Virus record (IMG/VR): IMGVR_UViG_3300010397_000014
Location: 1-55,419 of that record
DNA: 55,419 nt
Direction: 5' to 3' (one strand)
Source: a virus
This document shows positions 3,787-55,419 of this stretch, piece after piece. The notes below the pieces were generated by a model. It was not told where the DNA came from and made no database searches. It worked only from the letters and a program-made list of their open reading frames with translations. Made by a program: the position numbers and the translations under genes. Numbering within the stretch: the stretch's first letter is position 1; each line of letters starts with the position of its first letter.

Positions 3787-4410
3787 ATGTACAACCTCGA
3801 CACCACAGCAGCGCGCAAAGCCGACCAAACCGGCAATCGCATCAATGAAATCGGCAAGTACATCGGCACCTTCACCCAAGCCGAAGACATCACGGCGCAG
3901 ACCGGGACAAAGGGCGTTGCCCTGCGTTTCGAGAGCAACGGGCAGACCGCTAACCTGTCGCTCTACACCACCAAGGCCAACGGCGAACAGATCATGGGCT
4001 ATCAGGCCCTGATGGCAATCATGACCTGCATGAGCCTGCGCAGCATCACGCCCAAGCCCGGCACCGTGAAGTATTGGGACAACGACGCCAAGGTTGACGC
4101 AACACGACAAGGTCAGATTTTCCCGGAACTGTGCAACAAGCCCATCGGCCTGCTGCTGGAAACGGAAGACTATCCGAAGAATGACGGCGGTGTCGGCGTG
4201 CGCATGGTCATCGCCGGGATGTTCCAGGCGGCAACGGAGCTGACGGCCAGCGAGATTCTGGACAAGAAGACAAAGCCGGAACAGCTCGCCAAGATGGTCG
4301 CACGGCTGCACCACCGCCCGGCGCGTGCGGCGAAGGGCCAACCGGCAAGCCATGCGCCAGCCGGATCGTCCAGCGGGTTTGATGACATGCCCGACGATAT
4401 CCCTTTCTAG
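3787..4410 (+). CDS. Single-stranded DNA-binding protein (DUF669-like)
   Basis: 207 residues. The body resembles phage DUF669-type proteins, and the last nine residues (DDMPDDIPF) are the acidic tip used by SSB proteins to recruit partners. A basic, ala/gly/pro-rich linker (RPARAAKGQPASHAPAGSSSG) joins body and tip, as in SSBs. Works with the Sak4-like ATPase just upstream on ssDNA during recombination or replication. Confidence 0.82.
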   Translation: MYNLDTTAARKADQTGNRINEIGKYIGTFTQAEDITAQTGTKGVALRFESNGQTANLSLYTTKANGEQIMGYQALMAIMTCMSLRSITPKPGTVKYWDNDAKVDATRQGQIFPELCNKPIGLLLETEDYPKNDGGVGVRMVIAGMFQAATELTASEILDKKTKPEQLAKMVARLHHRPARAAKGQPASHAPAGSSSGFDDMPDDIPF

Positions 4411-10638: not shown

Positions 10639-11768
10639 GAACGATGGGACGAAAGCCGAGCCGCTGGAGCAACCTGCCCAAGGGTATGCGCGCTCGGCCG
10701 CGTGGCAACATGGTGCACTACTACCTGGACACCGGGGCCAAGCCGCGCAAGGAGATCCCGCTGGGCAGCGACTACGTGCGGGCGGTCCAAAAGTGGGCAG
10801 AACTGACCAGTAGGCCAGCGCCGGCAGCGGCCGTCCTGACGTGGCCGGATGCCGTGAAGGCATACCGCAAGGATGTGCTGCCCGGCAAGGCGCCGCGCTC
10901 GCAGAGCGACAATGAAACCCAATTCGAGTGGCTGGCCAAGTTCTTCGGGGATCCGCCGGCGCCGCTGGACAGTATCGAGCCGGTGCACATCCGGCAGTAC
11001 ATGAAGTGGCGCGTGCAGCAGGCCCGCATCCTGGCCGAGGCCAAGAATGAGGAATGCAGGCGTGCTGACAGGCCGTTGCAGCCCATCGCGGACGACATCG
11101 GCCACGTGCGCGCCAACCGCGAGAAAGCTCTGTTCTCGCACGTGTGGAACTATGCCCGCGGCGAGGGCATGACCAGCAAGCCCAACCCCTGCGCCGGTAT
11201 CCACGGATACACCGAGGAAGGCCGCGACGCCGCGCCGGACGCCGAGCTGGTGCAACTGGTACTGGACAAAGCCGACAAGCCCCTGGAGTTCGCCATGCGC
11301 CTGGCCGACATCATCGGGCAGCGTCCTGCCGATGTGCTGCGCGTGAGCGAGAAACACATCAGGGGAGAAATTCCGGGAGGCATCCTGGAGGTGCAGCAGG
11401 GCAAGACGAAGGCCAAGCTGCGCATCGTGATCGAAGGGCTGCTGGCATCCCTGCTCCTGGAAATAAAGGCATGGAAGAAAACGCTTGAGCAGGAGCACAA
11501 GGTTTACTCGATGGCGCTGCTGGTCAACGAAAGCGGCAAGGCGCTGTCCAAACACATGCTGCGCGATCGCTTCGACGATGCCCGCGCTCGGGCCGGCGTC
11601 AAGAAGGATCTGTTCCAGTTCCGGGACTTCCGCGCGAAGGTGGCCACCGAGACAGACGAGGCCGAAGGAACGCGCGCCGCACAAGCAATCCTTGGGCATA
11701 CCACAGAGGGAATGACCGCCGATTACATCCGCCACAAGGTCGGGAAAAAGGTGAGGCCGATCAGGTGA
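10635..11768 (+). CDS. int: Tyrosine integrase
   Basis: 377 residues. The N-terminal arm-type DNA-binding domain covers about 1-60 (MGRKPSRWSNLPKGMRAR, then HYYLDTG and PLGSDYVRAVQKWAEL). The core-binding domain covers about 65-185. In the catalytic domain are Arg230 (IIGQRPADVL), Lys257 (QQGKTKAK), the FRDFRAK motif at 329-335 (Arg333; His of the usual HxLR is absent), Gly-His at 354-355 and the nucleophile Tyr364 (MTADYIRH). It recombines attP at about 12.4 kb with the host tRNA-Lys gene. Start at 10635 overlaps the DUF4224 stop; Met4 is an alternative start. Confidence 0.93.
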   Translation: MRTMGRKPSRWSNLPKGMRARPRGNMVHYYLDTGAKPRKEIPLGSDYVRAVQKWAELTSRPAPAAAVLTWPDAVKAYRKDVLPGKAPRSQSDNETQFEWLAKFFGDPPAPLDSIEPVHIRQYMKWRVQQARILAEAKNEECRRADRPLQPIADDIGHVRANREKALFSHVWNYARGEGMTSKPNPCAGIHGYTEEGRDAAPDAELVQLVLDKADKPLEFAMRLADIIGQRPADVLRVSEKHIRGEIPGGILEVQQGKTKAKLRIVIEGLLASLLLEIKAWKKTLEQEHKVYSMALLVNESGKALSKHMLRDRFDDARARAGVKKDLFQFRDFRAKVATETDEAEGTRAAQAILGHTTEGMTADYIRHKVGKKVRPIR

Positions 11769-46238: not shown

Positions 46239-47659
46239 GACTGCATCCCTTTGTGTTTCGTTTCGGCCTTCTGCTTCACTGGCGCCGGCCCAGCCCAGCT
46301 CGAGAATCGCGTCTGCTCGCCGATGTAGGACAGGTCCAGATACCCGCAGCGCCCCTGCCGGTTTTTGGCTACGCTGACCTTGGCGTAGTGCTTCCACTCG
46401 AGCCCAAGCTCCGGGTTCGCCATGACCGGGCGCTTGATGAAAATGATCACGTCCGCGTCCTGCTCGATTTCGCCGGAGTCGCGCAAATCGCTCATTTGCG
46501 GCATCTGGTCAACCCGTTCCTCGGCCTTGCGATTGAGTTGCGCCAAGCACAGGACGCAGATTTGCAGTTCCTTGGCCAGCGCCTTCAGGCCGCGGCTGAT
46601 CTCGCCAAGCTGGGTGTTGCGGTTGTCCTTCGGATTGAGCCCGGTCATTAGACCGATGTAGTCCAGAACCAGCACGTCCATCCCGGTCTTGCGCTTGGCG
46701 TTGCGCGCTTTGCTGCGGACCTGATTGATGGTCAGCGCGCCCTGGTCGGATACCTGCATGCGCAGGTACTTGGCTTTTTCGGTGCCATCGCAAACCCGCG
46801 TCCAGTCCAAGCCTTCGCCGCGCGCCGGCCGCTTGACCTCGGACAGCGAAACGCCGCCGAGCATGGCCGTCAGGCGGTCGTTAACCTCCATGTGGCTCAT
46901 TTCCATCGAAAGCACCGACACGGGCCGCTCTGCCGCCATGTTCACACCGATGGTCAGCCCAAGGGCAGTCTTCCCCATGCTCGGGCGGGCGCCGACGATG
47001 ACCAACTCCCCCGGGCGCAATCCGCCCTCGAGGTATTCGTCCAGGTCCGGGAGGTGGGTCGGCCAGGCGGTCAGTTCTCCGGCGTGCCGGCGCTCGAGGA
47101 TCTGGCTGTGATTGACCATGCCGTCATAGGCGCTTACCCAATCGTCATCCGCGCCCCGGTTTTGGCTCAGCCCGATCGCCAGAATCTTCCGCTCGGCCTC
47201 GTCCAGAACCTGCGCTATGGTGTTGCCTTCGGTGCTGAATGCCGCCGCAGCGATCTCGTCGCTGGCAGTCACCAGCTTGCGGAGAATGGCCCGCTCGCGC
47301 ACGATTTCGGCGTAGCGGCGGATGCTTCCCGTCCCGGACACAAACTGCGCCAGCGATGCGAGGTAGCCCAGACCTCCCGCCTCGTTGGCTTTCCCGGTCT
47401 TTTCCAGCTCATCGAACACCGTCACCACATCGGCGGGCTTGCCGGCGCCGATCATTCGGACAATCGCCGTGAAAATCAGCCGATGCTCGAGCCGGTAAAA
47501 ATCGCCTTCGGTCAACAGGTCGACAACCCGGTCCCATGCGCCGTTGTCCAGCAGCAGGGCTCCCAGCACGCTTGATTCCGACTCGATGGAGTGCGGCGGG
47601 ATGCGCAGTTGGGCAATGCCGTCCATGAAGCCTTCGGGCTCGAGCAGCACGGCGCTCAT
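46235..47659 (-). CDS. Replicative DNA helicase, DnaB family
   Basis: 474 residues, normal DnaB length. N-terminal DnaB domain PPHSIESESSVLGALLLDNGAWD (20-45). RecA-like C-terminal domain: Walker A GARPSMGKTALG at 223-234, Walker B VLVLDYIGLM with Asp333, then LNRKAEERVDQMPQMSDLRDSGEIEQDADVIIFIKRP. Unwinds DNA at the phage fork; the DUF1376 protein upstream is its likely partner for loading. No separate lambda P-like loader was seen. Confidence 0.93.
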   Translation of the reverse strand: MSAVLLEPEGFMDGIAQLRIPPHSIESESSVLGALLLDNGAWDRVVDLLTEGDFYRLEHRLIFTAIVRMIGAGKPADVVTVFDELEKTGKANEAGGLGYLASLAQFVSGTGSIRRYAEIVRERAILRKLVTASDEIAAAAFSTEGNTIAQVLDEAERKILAIGLSQNRGADDDWVSAYDGMVNHSQILERRHAGELTAWPTHLPDLDEYLEGGLRPGELVIVGARPSMGKTALGLTIGVNMAAERPVSVLSMEMSHMEVNDRLTAMLGGVSLSEVKRPARGEGLDWTRVCDGTEKAKYLRMQVSDQGALTINQVRSKARNAKRKTGMDVLVLDYIGLMTGLNPKDNRNTQLGEISRGLKALAKELQICVLCLAQLNRKAEERVDQMPQMSDLRDSGEIEQDADVIIFIKRPVMANPELGLEWKHYAKVSVAKNRQGRCGYLDLSYIGEQTRFSSWAGPAPVKQKAETKHKGMQS

Positions 47660-48468
47660 GCAGCCGCCTTGTTTTCGTAATTACCCTGGACGACCTTCTC
47701 AAAGTTCGCGGCCTTGACCAGCCATTGCAGCGAACAAGTGAAGTCCCCGCGCCGGCCCATCAGGAAATCACTCCCGGAGACGTAGGTGAAAAACCTGCGG
47801 AACCAGTCCACCCCCTCGTCTCGGCTTGTGGCGTACCTCGCCCCGCTTCGCTTCTTTGCCGTCAGCACCCATCGCCACCGTGCCCGCAAGTACTCGGCGC
47901 TCTTGCCGTCCCACATTTCTGGCTTCGGCTGCGGCAGCTCCGGCAGGACTTGCCCGAAAAGGTCGATCAATGCCACATGCGGGCAATCGGGCAAGGCCGA
48001 CTTGTCGGCCGCAGAAGGTACGTCAGTACCTTCTTGTGAATACTGGCTATTGGCTACTGGCTTATGGCTTGGGTTCGATTCGGTTTCCGCCGATGAAACT
48101 AACCGCAAACCGTTTGGGTTATCTGGAATAACCGAATCGGTTATTAGAGTTGGTCTACCTCCGAGCTTCCCAAGTTCTTGATTTGCTTGTCCTTTTTCCT
48201 GTTTTTTGGCTATCTCTTCATCACACCTAATTTGATGAAAACCGTTTTCGGCCAAGTGAAAAAATTCTTTGAGAATATTTGAGACTGCGTTTTTCTCCGC
48301 GAGTTTTGTTGCGCCGCACAAGCGAAAAACAGCAGAAAGATCAGCCGGCAAGGGCTTCTCTGAACCGTAGTAAACGTCAAGCAGCACGGCATAGACTCCA
48401 TGCTCGAGCAGGCTCAAATGGCGGGTTGCCGCGGCGTAGTCGCCGATGTGCCGTTTGTAGTAATTCAC
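47656..48468 (-). CDS. DUF1376 replication-initiation-type protein, GTG start
   Basis: 270 residues from the GTG at 48468, which overlaps the previous stop (GTGA) and follows GAGGCAGC. N-terminal DUF1376 domain: NYYKRHIGDYAAATRHLSLLEHGVYAVLLDVYYGSEKPLPADLSAVFRLCG, then a linker (residues about 105-175) and a second domain (MWDGKSAEYLRARWRWVLTAKK...WFRRFFTYVSGSDFLMG) like the C-terminal part of phage O-type proteins. Sits before dnaB, and its linker-coding part is AT-rich and repeat-rich, as in lambda O. Confidence 0.8.
   Translation of the reverse strand: MNYYKRHIGDYAAATRHLSLLEHGVYAVLLDVYYGSEKPLPADLSAVFRLCGATKLAEKNAVSNILKEFFHLAENGFHQIRCDEEIAKKQEKGQANQELGKLGGRPTLITDSVIPDNPNGLRLVSSAETESNPSHKPVANSQYSQEGTDVPSAADKSALPDCPHVALIDLFGQVLPELPQPKPEMWDGKSAEYLRARWRWVLTAKKRSGARYATSRDEGVDWFRRFFTYVSGSDFLMGRRGDFTCSLQWLVKAANFEKVVQGNYENKAAA
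48013..48310 (+). other. Probable replication origin inside the DUF1376 gene
   Basis: Holds a 9-bp-arm inverted repeat (AGAAGGTAC/GTACCTTCT, 48013-48034), four tandem seven-base units TGGCTAT/TGGCTAC/TGGCTTA/TGGCTTG (48044-48071), AACCGAATCG in both orientations (48076-48085 and 48130-48139), a 19-bp palindrome AATAACCGA-A-TCGGTTATT (48127-48145), and a markedly AT-rich stretch with A/T runs (about 48170-48310). Iterons plus an AT-rich unwinding region within the initiator gene is the lambda ori layout. Confidence 0.65.
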
Positions 48469-48656
48469 CCAAGCTGCCTCTTTCCCAACCGTTCCCGGAT
48501 TTCTTCGTTGAGGTAGTCCACCAGCCAGCCCCGATGCGCCGGCCATTTGTCGCCGTGCTTTTTCTCGAGGTGGGTCATTTGCCGGGCGAACCATGCGCGC
48601 GTCTGCGGCAGCAGGTCTGCCGGGATGCCGCGCTCGTCCAGCGTCGGAGTTGTCAT
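48465..48656 (-). CDS. Hypothetical protein, 63 aa
   Basis: Coupled both ways (GTGA and ATGA). Helical, with RAWFARQMTHLEKKHGDKWPAHRGWLVDYLNEEIRERLG, three tryptophans. Small proteins of this kind occur just before DUF1376 genes; the function is unknown. Confidence 0.68.
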   Translation of the reverse strand: MTTPTLDERGIPADLLPQTRAWFARQMTHLEKKHGDKWPAHRGWLVDYLNEEIRERLGKRQLG

Positions 48657-52409: not shown

Positions 52410-52792
52410 GCAACACTCCTGATGCCACCGCGCGCCTTCAGGTGCTCGATTGCCTTCATAGCGCGTTCCATCGTGTTGGCCGCGCCGCTGATCACTTCGA
52501 CCAGCTTCACCGCTTCATCCTCTGGCGCCTTGCGATCCGGCCGCGCGTGCAGCGTTTCATCGCAGGCGTGCATCAGCGGGTCGTACTGCTCGCAGTAGTT
52601 CATCAGGCGGATGACTTGCCCGAACGTAAGGCGCTGGTCCCCGGTGGGGCTGCAACACGTCTTGAGCTTGGCGTAGGCGCTCTCGGCCTTCATGTCGGGA
52701 AACATGAACGAGGCCACGTCGCCAAACTTCTTTCCGCTCTCGCCTATGGCCGTTGCGATCGCATCGAATTCATCGTCGTAAAAAAGCTTCAC
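52406..52792 (-). CDS. CII-like HTH regulator candidate
   Basis: 128 residues. KKFGDVASFMFPDMKAESAYAKLKTCCSPTGDQRLTFGQVIRLMNYCEQYDPLMHACDE resembles CII/CP76-like phage regulators (KLxNP...LTxxExxxIxxxTGD). Its place after the tR1-like terminator and before replication genes is the cII position in lambda. Predicted to switch between lysis and lysogeny, or to help replication; not shown. The tail is helical. Confidence 0.6.
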   Translation of the reverse strand: MKLFYDDEFDAIATAIGESGKKFGDVASFMFPDMKAESAYAKLKTCCSPTGDQRLTFGQVIRLMNYCEQYDPLMHACDETLHARPDRKAPEDEAVKLVEVISGAANTMERAMKAIEHLKARGGIRSVA

Positions 52793-52840
52793 CTGATGCC
52801 TCCGTAATTTCTATGGGTGTTTAGGGGAGACTCGCGGGGC

Positions 52841-52871
52841 AAAAAAAGAGACAGTTCGTCGCATGACGAAC
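52841..52871 (-). other. Inverted repeat with A/T run
   Basis: GTTCGTC-GCAT-GACGAAC (52854-52871), perfect seven-base arms. On the minus strand it is followed by six bases and then TTTTTTT (52841-52847). It may be a weak second terminator or a protein-binding site ahead of the CII-like gene. Confidence 0.45.
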
Positions 52872-52879
52872 CACACGAA

Positions 52880-52913
52880 GAAAAACGCCCCGCGCTGCGT
52901 TGTCAGCGGGGGC
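52880..52913 (-). terminator. tR1-like intrinsic terminator
   Basis: Minus strand GCCCCCGCTG-acaacg-CAGCGCGGGGC, a ten-pair stem with one bulge, followed by GTTTTTC. Lies downstream of the GIY-YIG::HTH gene and upstream of the CII-like gene, so early leftward transcripts would stop here without antitermination. The 52793-53018 interval otherwise holds no gene I can support. Confidence 0.8.
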
Positions 52914-53018
52914 AAAGCACGCGCCTATTGCGGAGCGCGTGCGAGGAGAACTCATACGGGAGCTCGGCTGTACAAGCCGAACGAGACCGGGGGTATGTGC
53001 GGGGGTGGGCATGGCCGG

Positions 53019-53540
53019 TTAGGCCGAAGCCTGCGCAGTGATCGCGGGACCGTAGATTTCCTCGTACGTGACGAGGTGCCCGAGATCGGCGGCGTAGACG
53101 ATCAGTCTTTTCGCCGCGTCAGGAGGAATGGTCTGACCGCGCTCGTAGTGGCCCACGTTGCCTTGGGTGCAGCCCATGCCATCAGCCAATGCGGTTTGCG
53201 TGACGCCGAGGCGCTCGCGAATTACCCTGATACTGCTTATGGCGCTCGACGCCAGTTGCGTTGCGCACTGCTCGGCCCACTTGCAAACCTCATCGAAGTT
53301 GAGCCCGTCGAACCATTCGTTTTTGTTGCGACCCGATGCGGCAGCGGCGCACAACTCAATCAGCGCGGACTCAGCCGACAGGACGTGCGCGGCACATTCG
53401 ACCGTGTGCGATTCGTTCAGCAGGATTCCGAGACAGGAAACCCGCTCTTCGTGCTGCGCGATGCGCGAGGATGGGTCGCTGCTGCGGCCCACCTTCACGA
53501 AGCCATTGGAGAACCCGCAGACGTAGAGGAATTGGGGCAT
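53019..53540 (-). CDS. GIY-YIG (T5orf172-like) domain fused to Cro-type HTH
   Basis: 173 residues. Residues 1-85 are T5orf172/MUG113-like GIY-YIG: FLYVCGF (GIY part, Tyr6), GFVKVGRSSDPSSRIAQHE (YIG part VKVG 15-18, Arg26), SAESALIELC (Glu57) and NEWFDGL. Residues 104-160 are an HTH: IRVIRERLGVTQTALADGMGCTQGNVGHYERGQTIPPDAAKRLIVYAADLG (YdaS/XRE-like). This puts a nuclease-fold domain on a cro-like DNA-binding domain in the early regulator interval. Nuclease activity unproved. Confidence 0.85.
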   Translation of the reverse strand: MPQFLYVCGFSNGFVKVGRSSDPSSRIAQHEERVSCLGILLNESHTVECAAHVLSAESALIELCAAAASGRNKNEWFDGLNFDEVCKWAEQCATQLASSAISSIRVIRERLGVTQTALADGMGCTQGNVGHYERGQTIPPDAAKRLIVYAADLGHLVTYEEIYGPAITAQASA

Positions 53541-53546
53541 GGCGAC

Positions 53547-53819
53547 TCAGGCCGCTTTGCGATGTGCTTGTTTGCTGTCGGAAGCCGTGACGAGGCGAAG
53601 GTAGGCCCAGTCAACATCGGGGCGCATTTCCTCGCACTTCATCGCGCCCTCGAGCGCACGCTCAATGGAGGGGCAATACTCTGCGGGGATGCGGTTGCGC
53701 GTCCACGATTGAACCGTCTGGTAGCGGTCGATCTCGAGTTTGCGGGCCGCCTGTATTGGGCCGCCAAGCAGATTGACTGCATGCTGGGCGGCTTTGGCTG
53801 GGTCGAATTTGGCCGGCAT
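53547..53819 (-). CDS. Cro-like (YdaS-type) repressor
   Basis: 90 residues from the ATG at 53819 (AGAGGAAAC upstream). LLGGPIQAARKLEIDRYQTVQSWTRNRIPAEYCPSIERALEGAMKCEEMRPDVDWAYLR fits the YdaS/Cro family HTH (GGxxxAAxxLGVxxxTVQxWxxxxxIPAxxCxxIE). First gene of the leftward early operon, under the operator pair 53830-53862, the position of cro. Confidence 0.88.
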   Translation of the reverse strand: MPAKFDPAKAAQHAVNLLGGPIQAARKLEIDRYQTVQSWTRNRIPAEYCPSIERALEGAMKCEEMRPDVDWAYLRLVTASDSKQAHRKAA

Positions 53820-53829
53820 CGTTTCCTCT

Positions 53830-53862
53830 ACTAGATTTCCTAGTGATGCTAGACCATCTTGT
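53830..53862 (+). promoter_or_regulatory. Operator pair O1/O2 (15-bp palindromes)
   Basis: O1 is ACTAG-ATTTC-CTAGT (53830-53844); O2 is GCTAG-ACCAT-CTTGT (53848-53862). Their centres are 18 bp apart. O2 overlaps the -10 and spacer of the leftward promoter and O1 covers its start region. A weak rightward promoter for the repressor gene (TTTCCT at 53837, 17 bp, TGTATT at 53860) would overlap both. Confidence 0.8.
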
Positions 53863-53874
53863 ATTGGATTGCAA
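53846..53874 (-). promoter_or_regulatory. Leftward early promoter (PR-like)
   Basis: On the minus strand -35 TTGCAA (53869-53874), a 17-base spacer and -10 TAGCAT (53846-53851). It would start transcription near the YdaS/Cro-like gene at 53819, and it is overlapped by the operators. Confidence 0.78.
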
Positions 53875-53899
53875 GCCTCCGGGTGAAATATTCCTGGGG

Positions 53900-54394
53900 A
53901 TGCCAACCATTCACGACTTGATAAAGATCAAACGCAAGGCCAAAGGCTGGTCCATGGGCAAGCTCGCCAAGGAGGTGAGCGCGCGGGCCGGCGTTGACCC
54001 GCCCCTGGTGTGGCAGACCGTCCAACAATGGGAGGGCGGCGGCTCAGCCCCGAAGCGAAAGCTCTTGCCCATCGTGGCGCAACTGCTGGACACGAACGTC
54101 AATGACTTGCTCGAGGCCGCTCCTGCTGACGGCCCATCGGACATGGGTATTGAGCAGGCCGTTGAAGTGCTGGCCGAGGGCTTGATGGAGCTGCAGCAGA
54201 TTGATAGAGAAACCGCGGCAACCCTGCTCGGCGAGTTCGCCATAGCGCCAGAGGGAAAGTGGCGAGAGTGGCTGCTTGATCTACTGGCCGGCTCCAGTGC
54301 GCAGCCGCCACCGACAGAGCCTGACGCGATCATTTCGCGCATCATCCCGCGTCCAGATCAAGGAAAGCCGCACAAGCGCAAACCAAGGCGTTAG
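53900..54394 (+). CDS. CI-like repressor, HTH without peptidase domain
   Basis: 164 residues. Residues 1-72 are an XRE HTH: IHDLIKIKRKAKGWSMGKLAKEVSARAGVDPPLVWQTVQQWEGGGSAPKRKLLPIVAQLLDTNVNDL. Residues 80-130 are helical (IEQAVEVLAEGLMELQQIDRETAATLLGEF), perhaps for dimerisation. The end is pro/arg-rich. The S24/LexA autoprotease domain of lambda CI is absent. Divergent to the Cro-like gene and between two matching operator pairs. The ATG at 53900 has only GGGG close by; a longer frame opens at 53843. Confidence 0.8.
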   Translation: MPTIHDLIKIKRKAKGWSMGKLAKEVSARAGVDPPLVWQTVQQWEGGGSAPKRKLLPIVAQLLDTNVNDLLEAAPADGPSDMGIEQAVEVLAEGLMELQQIDRETAATLLGEFAIAPEGKWREWLLDLLAGSSAQPPPTEPDAIISRIIPRPDQGKPHKRKPRR

Positions 54395-54461
54395 GCATTC
54401 GCCCTCTGGCGTCGGCCCCTTCTTTATGTGCGAAATGACCAGCGCACAGAGGGAGAATTGC

Positions 54462-54701
54462 ATGACGGTGCTGTTTCTTGTCCCGCGCGCAGGTGACGCG
54501 GGCACGATCGCGGTTTTGCGCGCGCTGCTGCGCGAAGCGATCGCAGGCAAGGTAGTCGGCCTGGCGCTTTGCTACAGGGCGCGCAACGGGGCCGATGAAG
54601 CCATCTATACCGGCACGTACAAAGACCGGCCCGCCGATGCCGTGATGGCCGCAATGAAGATCAGCTGGCGACTGACCCAGCTCGCCGACTCCCCGCCGTA
54701 A
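54462..54701 (+). CDS. Lysogeny-region accessory protein, 79 aa
   Basis: ATG at 54462 follows AGAGGGAGAA. Alpha/beta: MTVLFLVPRAGDAGTIAVLRALLREAIAGKVVGLALCYRARNGADEAIYTGTYKDRPADAVMAAMKISWRL. It follows the repressor gene on the same strand and lies inside the two operator pairs, the rexAB position, so it may be expressed in the prophage. No family recognised; exclusion or immunity is a guess. Confidence 0.7.
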   Translation: MTVLFLVPRAGDAGTIAVLRALLREAIAGKVVGLALCYRARNGADEAIYTGTYKDRPADAVMAAMKISWRLTQLADSPP

Positions 54702-54720
54702 TCAACTGTCAGACCGACGC

Positions 54721-54738
54721 TACCTACAAACGTAGGTA
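54721..54738 (+). promoter_or_regulatory. Palindrome TACCTAC-AAAC-GTAGGTA
   Basis: Perfect seven-base arms just upstream of the rightward promoter/operators, without a following T-run. It does not match the RCTAG operators, so it may be the site of a second regulator. Confidence 0.5.
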
Positions 54739-54753
54739 ATCGCGGCTCGTCCT

Positions 54754-54793
54754 TTGACGCTAGTTTATCTTGTGTTACTAGTTTCTCTAGTAT
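54754..54793 (+). promoter_or_regulatory. Operator pair O3/O4 and rightward early promoter (PL-like)
   Basis: O3 is GCTAG-TTTAT-CTTGT (54759-54773); O4 is ACTAG-TTTCT-CTAGT (54777-54791). Centres are again 18 bp apart, in mirror order to O1/O2. Promoter options: TTGACG (54754) with 17 bp to ACTAGT, or TTTATC (54764) with 18 bp to TAGTAT (54788). Both are covered by the operators. It drives the gene at 54862 and the early operon beyond the window cut. Confidence 0.75.
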
Positions 54794-54861
54794 AGGATTC
54801 ATCCACATCAACAGCGAAGCCCGCCCACCCAAAGGGCATCGCAGCAACAACAGGAGATCAG

Positions 54862-55419
54862 ATGGCGAAGAAACAAGCGAAGGCGGAGTCGGTTCAATCA
54901 ACTGGGGCGGCGGCGGAGCCTGCTGCGGTCATCATGGCCTACAAGGGCTTCGACTCGCAACTGAAATGCCGCGACGTGCAGTACGCCGTGGGCCAGTCGT
55001 ACAGCATGGACGGCCACATTGCTGCATGCGAGCGCGGGTATCACGCCTGCGAGCATCCGCTGGACGTATTCAACTACTACCCCCCGGCAGGCAACCGTTT
55101 CGCGCTGGTTGAGCAATCCGGCGAGATCGCGCGCCATGACGGCGACACCAAGGTTGCCAGCTCGCGCATCCACATCAAGGCCGAGATCGACTTTGCTGGG
55201 CTGATCAAGGCGGCGGTTGATTACACCTTCAGCCGCGCCAAGCCGATTGATCCTGAGTCTCCGGCGCATGCCGCTGATGAATGCGGGCACGCCAGCGCCA
55301 CGGGCAACAGCGGTGCTGCATCGGCCACGGGCAACAGCGGTGCTGCATCGGCCACGGGCAACAGCGGTGCTGCATCGGCCACGGGCAACAGCGGTGCTGC
55401 ATCGGCCACGGGCAACAGC
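54862..55419 (+). CDS. Repeat-stalk early protein, N-terminal part (continues at 2-316)
   Basis: ATG follows AGGAGATC. The first 25 residues are Ala/Lys/Gln-rich. Residues 26-135 (AYKGFDSQLKCRDVQYAVGQSY, ACERGYHACEHPLDVFNYYPP, RFALVEQSGEI, SSRIHIKAEIDFAGLIKAAVDYTF) match the phage DUF7666 type domain. After DECGHAS it enters the nine-residue repeat A-T-G-N-S-G-A-A-S, still open at the window end. First gene of the rightward early operon. Function unknown. Confidence 0.85.
   Translation, partial: MAKKQAKAESVQSTGAAAEPAAVIMAYKGFDSQLKCRDVQYAVGQSYSMDGHIAACERGYHACEHPLDVFNYYPPAGNRFALVEQSGEIARHDGDTKVASSRIHIKAEIDFAGLIKAAVDYTFSRAKPIDPESPAHAADECGHASATGNSGAASATGNSGAASATGNSGAASATGNSGAASATGNS
55293..55419 (+). 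repeat. 27-bp tandem repeat array, right part
   Basis: Units start at 55293 (slightly diverged at its first codon), 55320, 55347, 55374 and 55401 (19 bases to the edge). Identical in sequence and frame to the array at 1-123. Confidence 0.97.

Follow-up and report, generated by a model that had tools for sequence, protein, structure and literature searches.

The DNA analysed here, called the window throughout, is the whole of a 55,419-bp IMG/VR virus record (IMGVR_UViG_3300010397_000014) for which a DNA similarity search against known phages gave no match. Close to one end of it, a gene for a YdaS/Cro-family regulator and a gene for a CI-like repressor diverge from a pair of 15-bp dyads, and a second pair of dyads lies behind the repressor gene (Table 1). 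Leftward of the T5orf172::HTH gene are genes matching DNA helicase, DNA methyltransferase and primosomal/replication-initiation families, and at the opposite end of the record are genes matching Sak4-like annealing protein, SSB and Gam-like families. The gene order resembles that of lambda, and the small ORF behind the repressor gene stands where lambda has its rex genes. The first and last 100 bases of the record are identical; because they lie inside a tandem repeat, however, this identity is not necessarily a sign of circularity, and the joining of the ends is uncertain. The repeat is common to positions 1-120 and 55280-55419, where it encodes a collagen-like stretch.

Table 1. Genes, candidate operators and candidate early promoters of the window.
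Feature	Position	Strand	Description
Tyrosine-integrase domain	11271-11738		
T5orf172 (GIY-YIG-like)::HTH fusion gene	53019-53540	-	Second in the PR operon, at the cII position; Pfam HTH_31, 1e-7
YdaS/Cro-family regulator, 90 aa	53547-53819	-	Helix YQTVQSW; Pfam YdaS_toxin 8e-18, P22_Cro 1e-3
OR1, Cro-proximal	53830-53844		ACTAGATTTCCTAGT, ACTAG-N5-CTAGT; spans the predicted PR start point; matrix 19.74 bits, rank 2
PR, candidate	53846-53874	-	-35 TTGCAA (53874-53869), 17-bp spacer, -10 TAGCAT (53851-53846)
OR2, repressor-proximal	53848-53862		GCTAGACCATCTTGT, GCTAG-N5-CTTGT; within the candidate PR spacer and 4 bp into the -10; matrix 17.65 bits, rank 4
CI-like repressor, 164 aa	53900-54394	+	Helix WQTVQQW; Pfam HTH_3 1.7e-3, under the curated cut-off; no S24 match
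Small ORF, 79 aa	54462-54701	+	Between repressor and PL; no Pfam match; PHROGs marginal, 0.48
OL site 1	54759-54773		GCTAGTTTATCTTGT, GCTAG-N5-CTTGT; 4 bp into the candidate PL -35; matrix 21.19 bits, rank 1
PL, candidate	54770-54798	+	-35 TTGTGT (54770-54775), 17-bp spacer, -10 TAGGAT (54793-54798)
OL site 2	54777-54791		ACTAGTTTCTCTAGT, ACTAG-N5-CTAGT; within the candidate PL spacer; matrix 19.09 bits, rank 3
DUF7666 + collagen-like repeat gene	54862-55419	+	First gene behind PL; Pfam DUF7666 3e-35; PHROG 4433; runs off the record end

A preliminary description of this DNA had reported the four dyads, and both a reading of the sequence and a pattern search find them where it placed them. The genome search that it had proposed, with RCTAG-N5-CTWGT, returned exact matches at these four places only in the 55,419 bp (six strand-hits, two of the sites being palindromes), while dinucleotide shuffles gave 0.14 +/- 0.38 exact hits and none of 100 reached six. 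The looser pattern RCWAG-N5-CTWGY added a single place, at 47991 within the ORF 47656-48594. With two mismatches allowed there were 98 matches in the window against 62.7 +/- 8.5 in shuffles, and meaning is therefore restricted to exact and near-exact sites. The tetranucleotide CTAG itself is scarce, with 23 occurrences in the window where a second-order model predicts about 63, and 6 of the 23 fall within the two pairs. Each pair has its dyad centres 18 bp apart and a half-site every 9 bp, in the order CTAG, CTAG, CTAG, CTTG at OR and CTAG, CTTG, CTAG, CTAG at OL; 929 bp separate OR from OL. The two pairs had been described as lying in mirror order, with mirror-image spacing. Their site order is indeed mirrored, with the palindrome outermost in both, but true mirror symmetry is rejected because the asymmetric site reads GCTAG-N5-CTTGT along the + strand at OR and at OL alike; the 33-bp cores match at 20 of 33 positions when inverted and at 21 of 33 when compared directly.

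Relatives were gathered through the CI protein alone, the operators and Cro having no part in the choice of loci. The search used peptide patterns that included WQTVQQWE, so that invariance of the CI helix among the relatives is by selection, and it yielded 59 loci in viral records and 14 in genome records, whose titles place them in the Burkholderiales. With the window these made 74 sequences, which were reduced by shared 12-mers to 50 non-redundant loci, window included. In 48 of the 50, the 250 bp upstream of CI contain RCWAG-N5-CTWGY, the exceptions being L034 and L045, which have no strict site there; the same pattern with a spacer of 1-4 or 6-9 bp was found upstream of CI in none of the 50. 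A downstream CTAG-containing copy, 0.2-5 kb from CI, accompanies the repressor gene in 45 of 50 loci, against 0-2 of 50 for other spacers, and is absent from the remaining five, some loci being short. A weight matrix built without the window, on 82 OR sites taken from the remaining loci, placed the four sites of the window at ranks 1-4 (17.65-21.19 bits; next 15-mer in the window, 9.55), with the proviso that its training sites fit the strict pattern and such sites are favoured by construction. In 30 second-order Markov sequences no score came up to that of the lowest of the four sites, and the highest was 17.36. Judged by their sequence, the four sites look like genuine operators of a lambda-style switch and not a chance repeat.

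A CTAG-operator family is defined here by RCWAG-N5-CTWGY at both operators, a WQTVQQW helix in CI and a YQxxQxW helix in Cro, all of which are found in the window. Four named phage loci were inspected for the sites: they are present in IFTN2 and absent from Ab31 and PBR31, and MD8 has a single one at a distance from its CI. A blind scan of viral contigs for double sites returned at least 119 stretches; among those listed, 9 have a WQTVQ.W-like HTH, 110 are without one, and 78 have a single double-site place, so that the scan is not a clean converse test of the pairing between operator and HTH.

The description of two sites per operator holds for the window and needs widening for the family, where OR often has a third. 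In the window, offsets of 39 and 51 bp from OR1 carry 8 and 6 mismatches, and no further site was found among the matrix hits near OL except an overlapping one at 54768. Of the 43 of 50 loci that could be anchored on OR1, 17 have an exact third dyad nearer the repressor start, at an offset of 38-39 bp; a dyad 51 bp from OR1 is exact in one and has one mismatch in eight. In the 34 loci measured, OR and OL stand 563-4771 bp apart, with no fixed geometry.

The early promoters were located by the same comparison, an automatic promoter scan requiring at least 9 of 12 matches having found none in 52500-55419. The claim that each operator pair covers an early promoter is borne out by the loci compared, the register of PL relative to the dyads being conserved in all that were scored and that of PR in most of the window's clade. 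A strict OL pair with centres 17 or 18 bp apart occurs in 36 of 50 loci, 35 of which were scored (L054 ends too early), and TTG-N17-xAxxxT is found around the pair in all 35. Where the OL spacing is 18 bp, a TTG closes the first dyad and a hexamer with A2 and T6 follows exactly 17 bp on (21/21); where the spacing is 17 bp, the hexamer has moved by one base and the 17-bp promoter spacer is restored (14/14). Eleven other registers, scored as a control, give 0-2 loci. The T and G of the -35 TTG also belong to the operator pattern, and the independent evidence for PL is therefore mainly the -10 hexamer and its shift. This register puts a predicted PL at 54770-54798 in the window. For the predicted PR, 9 of the 12 anchored members of the window's clade have TTG-N17-TAGYAT between the dyads, against none of the 31 others. 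The corresponding transcripts would start at about 53839 (leftward, from PR) and about 54805 (rightward, from PL). A -10-like hexamer just past OR1 is present in 28 of the 43 anchored loci, a weaker test as two offsets were allowed, and 6 of the 43 have neither register.

For the promoter of the repressor gene, PRM, inspection by eye gave at best a weak candidate, TTGGAT-N17-AATATT, in 53863-53900; it would make a nearly leaderless repressor message, of the kind reported for paaR2 and lambda cI (PMC8630535).

The repressor of the window is predicted to begin with a confident HTH domain (residues 1-70, AlphaFold pLDDT 94-98 by block) whose recognition helix, residues 38-46, reads WQTVQQWEG; for the C-terminal half, with blocks at 41-76, no fold is claimed. 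In a Foldseek search against the PDB the top rows were DdrO, SinR and P22 c2, followed below by the 434 repressor, with no match at E <= 0.001, and the modelled HTH resembles the P22 c2 and 434 repressor structures. A phmmer search of CI against the PDB returned mainly designed alpha-repeat proteins (best E 4.6e-4, residues 51-113), which were judged spurious. Pfam finds only the HTH in this CI, and the S24 domain of a RecA-inducible repressor gave no match in the window; among the 50 CIs of the family, 29 have S24, and the window's and 20 others are without it. In thirteen of the 50, which form the window's clade, HTH helix 2 is separated from the recognition helix by 7-10 more residues than in, for example, L018 and L024. 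A turn of this length is unusual for a phage repressor.

The window's Cro has PDB 3bd1, a Cro protein, as its nearest solved sequence (4e-8), and AlphaFold places its recognition helix at residues 33-41, YQTVQSWTR. This helix has residues in common with that of the repressor (YQTVQSW, WQTVQQW). Although Cro was not used for finding the loci, YQxxQxW is present in Cro at 48 of 50 of them, the exceptions being L059, with YRVVQQW, and L010, where no Cro was recognised. The invariant columns of the Cro alignment (49 rows) prove nothing, the rows having been chosen by the helix pattern itself.

The OR/OL-like placement put forward in the preliminary description, with OR between divergent cro and cI and OL behind cI, is upheld by the comparison of loci. 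On the sequence evidence the four dyads very probably serve as operators in the lambda-type immunity region of a temperate phage, where the repressor would sit on the dyads and shut the early promoters, with Cro most likely in competition. Beside the observed sites, their conservation, the promoter geometry and the common helix residues, we infer CI binding, repression and Cro competition as follows. In the lysogen, the CI-like repressor would bind each 15-bp RCWAG-N5-CTWGY dyad, presumably as a dimer. At OR it would cover the -10, spacer and start of PR, the promoter of cro, the CII-like gene and the replication genes, and at OL the -35 and spacer of PL, the promoter of the DUF7666 gene; if the record closes on itself, PL would also serve the Sak4-like, SSB, Gam-like and integrase genes. 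Both early promoters would thereby be closed to RNA polymerase. Once the phage has infected a cell or has been induced, its YdaS-family Cro, with a recognition helix like the repressor's, would most likely compete for the repressor's dyads, and the two proteins probably bind common operators. Looping between OR and OL across the repressor region, which in lambda involves repressor octamers, is no more than a possibility; since the repressor has no S24 self-cleavage domain, neither induction nor looping need follow lambda.

A second family of loci allows the pairing of helix and operator to be examined from another side. As a control, a piece of CI from Pseudomonas phage Ab31 (HG798806; helix PQAVQKW) led to 71 loci (L202-L272), 48 of them non-redundant, the helix being again selected for. 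As in the window's family, Cro and CI diverge around an operator, and the CI and Cro helices of Ab31 are alike (PQAVQKW and PQAVQKM), but the operator is of the form TACAA-N7-TTGTA. Such sites, with up to two mismatches, are found in 43 of 48 loci and are exact in 36. The loci without them (L244, L265 and L269-L271) have CI helices other than the PQAVQKW type. RCWAG-N5-CTWGY was found upstream in 2 of 48 (L226 and L227) despite their PQAVQKW helices, and there it coincides with a TACAA-type site whose -3 base is G. The Cro helix, recognised in 26 of 48 loci, is of the PQAVQ type with small variants. Both operator types keep one dyad register, with C at -6 and A at -4, and they differ at -5 (A in the TACAA type, A or T in the CTAG type) and at -3 (mostly C against G). 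Three loci reached through the window's Cro (L062-L064) contain no RCWAG-N5-CTWGY site in about 10 kb each; in two of them the Cro helix could be read, and it is of another type.

A tentative reading, to which we give somewhat less than an even chance, is that two sister immunity families are split by a small code common to CI and Cro. In one, both proteins would mostly carry (W/Y)-Q-(T/V)-V-Q-(Q/S)-W and read YRCWAG half-sites; in the other, both would carry helices of the P-Q-A-V-Q-K-(W/M) type and read TRCAAC half-sites, the dyad register being common to the two families. The specificities of CI and Cro would thus have moved together, and the window's clade would also have re-registered its operators against PR along with the 7-10-residue CI insertion. 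Three sites upstream of CI are often seen in the sister family.

Set beside lambda, the window likewise has cI and cro diverging from an operator, a second operator behind cI over the predicted PL, operators that overlap both predicted early promoters, and a PR that leads into replication genes. Lambda has three sites per operator with dyad centres about 23-24 bp apart; the window differs in having two sites at each of OR and OL, 15-bp RCWAG-N5-CTWGY dyads with centres 18 bp apart, 0.93 kb between OR and OL, a repressor without S24 and a YdaS-family Cro. A tested precedent for a switch made of a CI-like protein and YdaS is the PaaR2/YdaS/YdaT region of CP-933P in E. coli O157:H7, which likewise has a short CI-like regulator (PaaR2, 15,081 Da with its tag) and YdaS in the role of Cro; there the PaaR2 and YdaS footprints overlap at PR/PRM, and PL is repressed by both (PMC8630535). 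CP-933P differs in its repeat consensus, GTTTAGTAA, which occurs in four 18-bp inverted repeats, in the three OR and three OL operators named, in the toxin-antitoxin pair behind the repressor, and in its second gene, YdaT instead of a GIY-YIG::HTH fusion (PMC8630535). The window and CP-933P have a YdaS-family Cro in common, and the published repeat consensus differs from the window's sites.

In N15 and phiKO2 the prophage repressor is also without self-cleavage residues, OL has two operators, and OR lies between repressor and cro; different from the window are the 16-bp TA-N10-TA sites, three of them at OR, the position of OL upstream of repA, and a Cro that binds OR3 alone (PMC4997575). The immB pattern was not found in the window, whose 15-bp dyads are without TA-N10-TA and number two at OR. 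Cro and CB of phiKO2 have no operators in common, and a similar layout consequently does not prove common sites (PMC4997575). The window's sites might likewise be operators of CI alone, with Cro binding just one of them or another site. The reported difference in binding specificity between phiKO2 CB and Cro (PMC4997575) fits this, as do the helices themselves, in which position 1 is Y in Cro for W in CI and positions 3 and 6 often differ. Set against it are the YQxxQxW helix in 48 of 50 Cros beside a WQTVQQW CI, the parallel pairing of PQAVQ-type CI and Cro helices in 26 of 48 sister loci, and the overlapping PaaR2 and YdaS footprints of CP-933P (PMC8630535), and we regard the CI-only arrangement as unlikely.

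It is less probable still that an oligomer reads a continuous array of half-sites in 9-bp phase instead of discrete 15-bp dyads. Both arrays of the window do have a half-site every 9 bp, and among the 43 anchored loci an offset of 9 bp shows 3 exact and 5 one-mismatch sites. The inner 5-bp spacer is nonetheless invariant (48 of 50 loci, against none for other spacers), the linker between the OL dyads is 2 or 3 bp with the -10 shifting in compensation, and the third OR sites stand at offsets of 38-39 or 51 bp, which are not multiples of 9. That the T5orf172 (GIY-YIG)::HTH protein is the main binder is very improbable: it has a good HTH and lies in the PR operon, but its sequence contains no QTVQxW-like helix, and the T5orf172 domain was found in none of the 10 records of operator-bearing relatives that were searched, some of them fragments. 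A chance or unrelated repeat, such as CTAG-rich intergenic DNA, to which the 98 two-mismatch matches and the 110 listed blind-scan stretches without the HTH might be referred, can practically be dismissed in view of the matrix ranking, the promoter register and, most strongly, the spacer control.

Taken as a lambda-type immunity region, the locus looks like a switch of a familiar kind with an operator code of its own. Among the papers listed by searches of the open-access literature with the operator letters, the helix motifs and broader topics, none reported these operators. RCWAG-N5-CTWGY together with TTG-N17-xAxxxT provides a rule for locating OR, OL, PL and often PR in CTAG-operator temperate phages, and such a rule could help to predict immunity groups. 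The sister families, with their parallel CI and Cro helices, offer a natural experiment on the joint change of repressor and Cro specificity; work by Hall et al. in 2005 on the Cro recognition code reportedly addressed the same question of changing repressor and Cro specificity.

A named phage with these operators and almost the same helices is Bordetella avium phage vB_BaM-IFTN2 (OM293951), which has the CI helix WQTVQQW and the Cro helix YQTVQQW; ahead of its CI HTH lie GCAAGAAAAACTAGT and ACAAGATAACCTTGT, and downstream, 17 bp apart, ACTAGTTTTTCTTGC / GCTAGTTTTTCTTGT. It differs from the window in a repressor annotated as 369 aa and in the roughly 2.6 kb between its operators. Four sister IFTN phages give the same repressor match, the operators having been examined in IFTN2 only. 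Lysogens of the IFTN phages are reported to be open to superinfection by the same phages, with no stable immunity (PMC10269795); this counts against the proposed switch, as a working repressor and operator would not predict superinfection. The same report describes antirepressor genes, which might bear on the missing immunity, in all IFTN phages except IFTN2, and the word "operator" is absent from the available portion of its main text (PMC10269795). The annotated IFTN2 repressor CDS (L198:3923-5032) begins upstream of the phage's own operators (3931-3984), and its start is probably annotated too far upstream.
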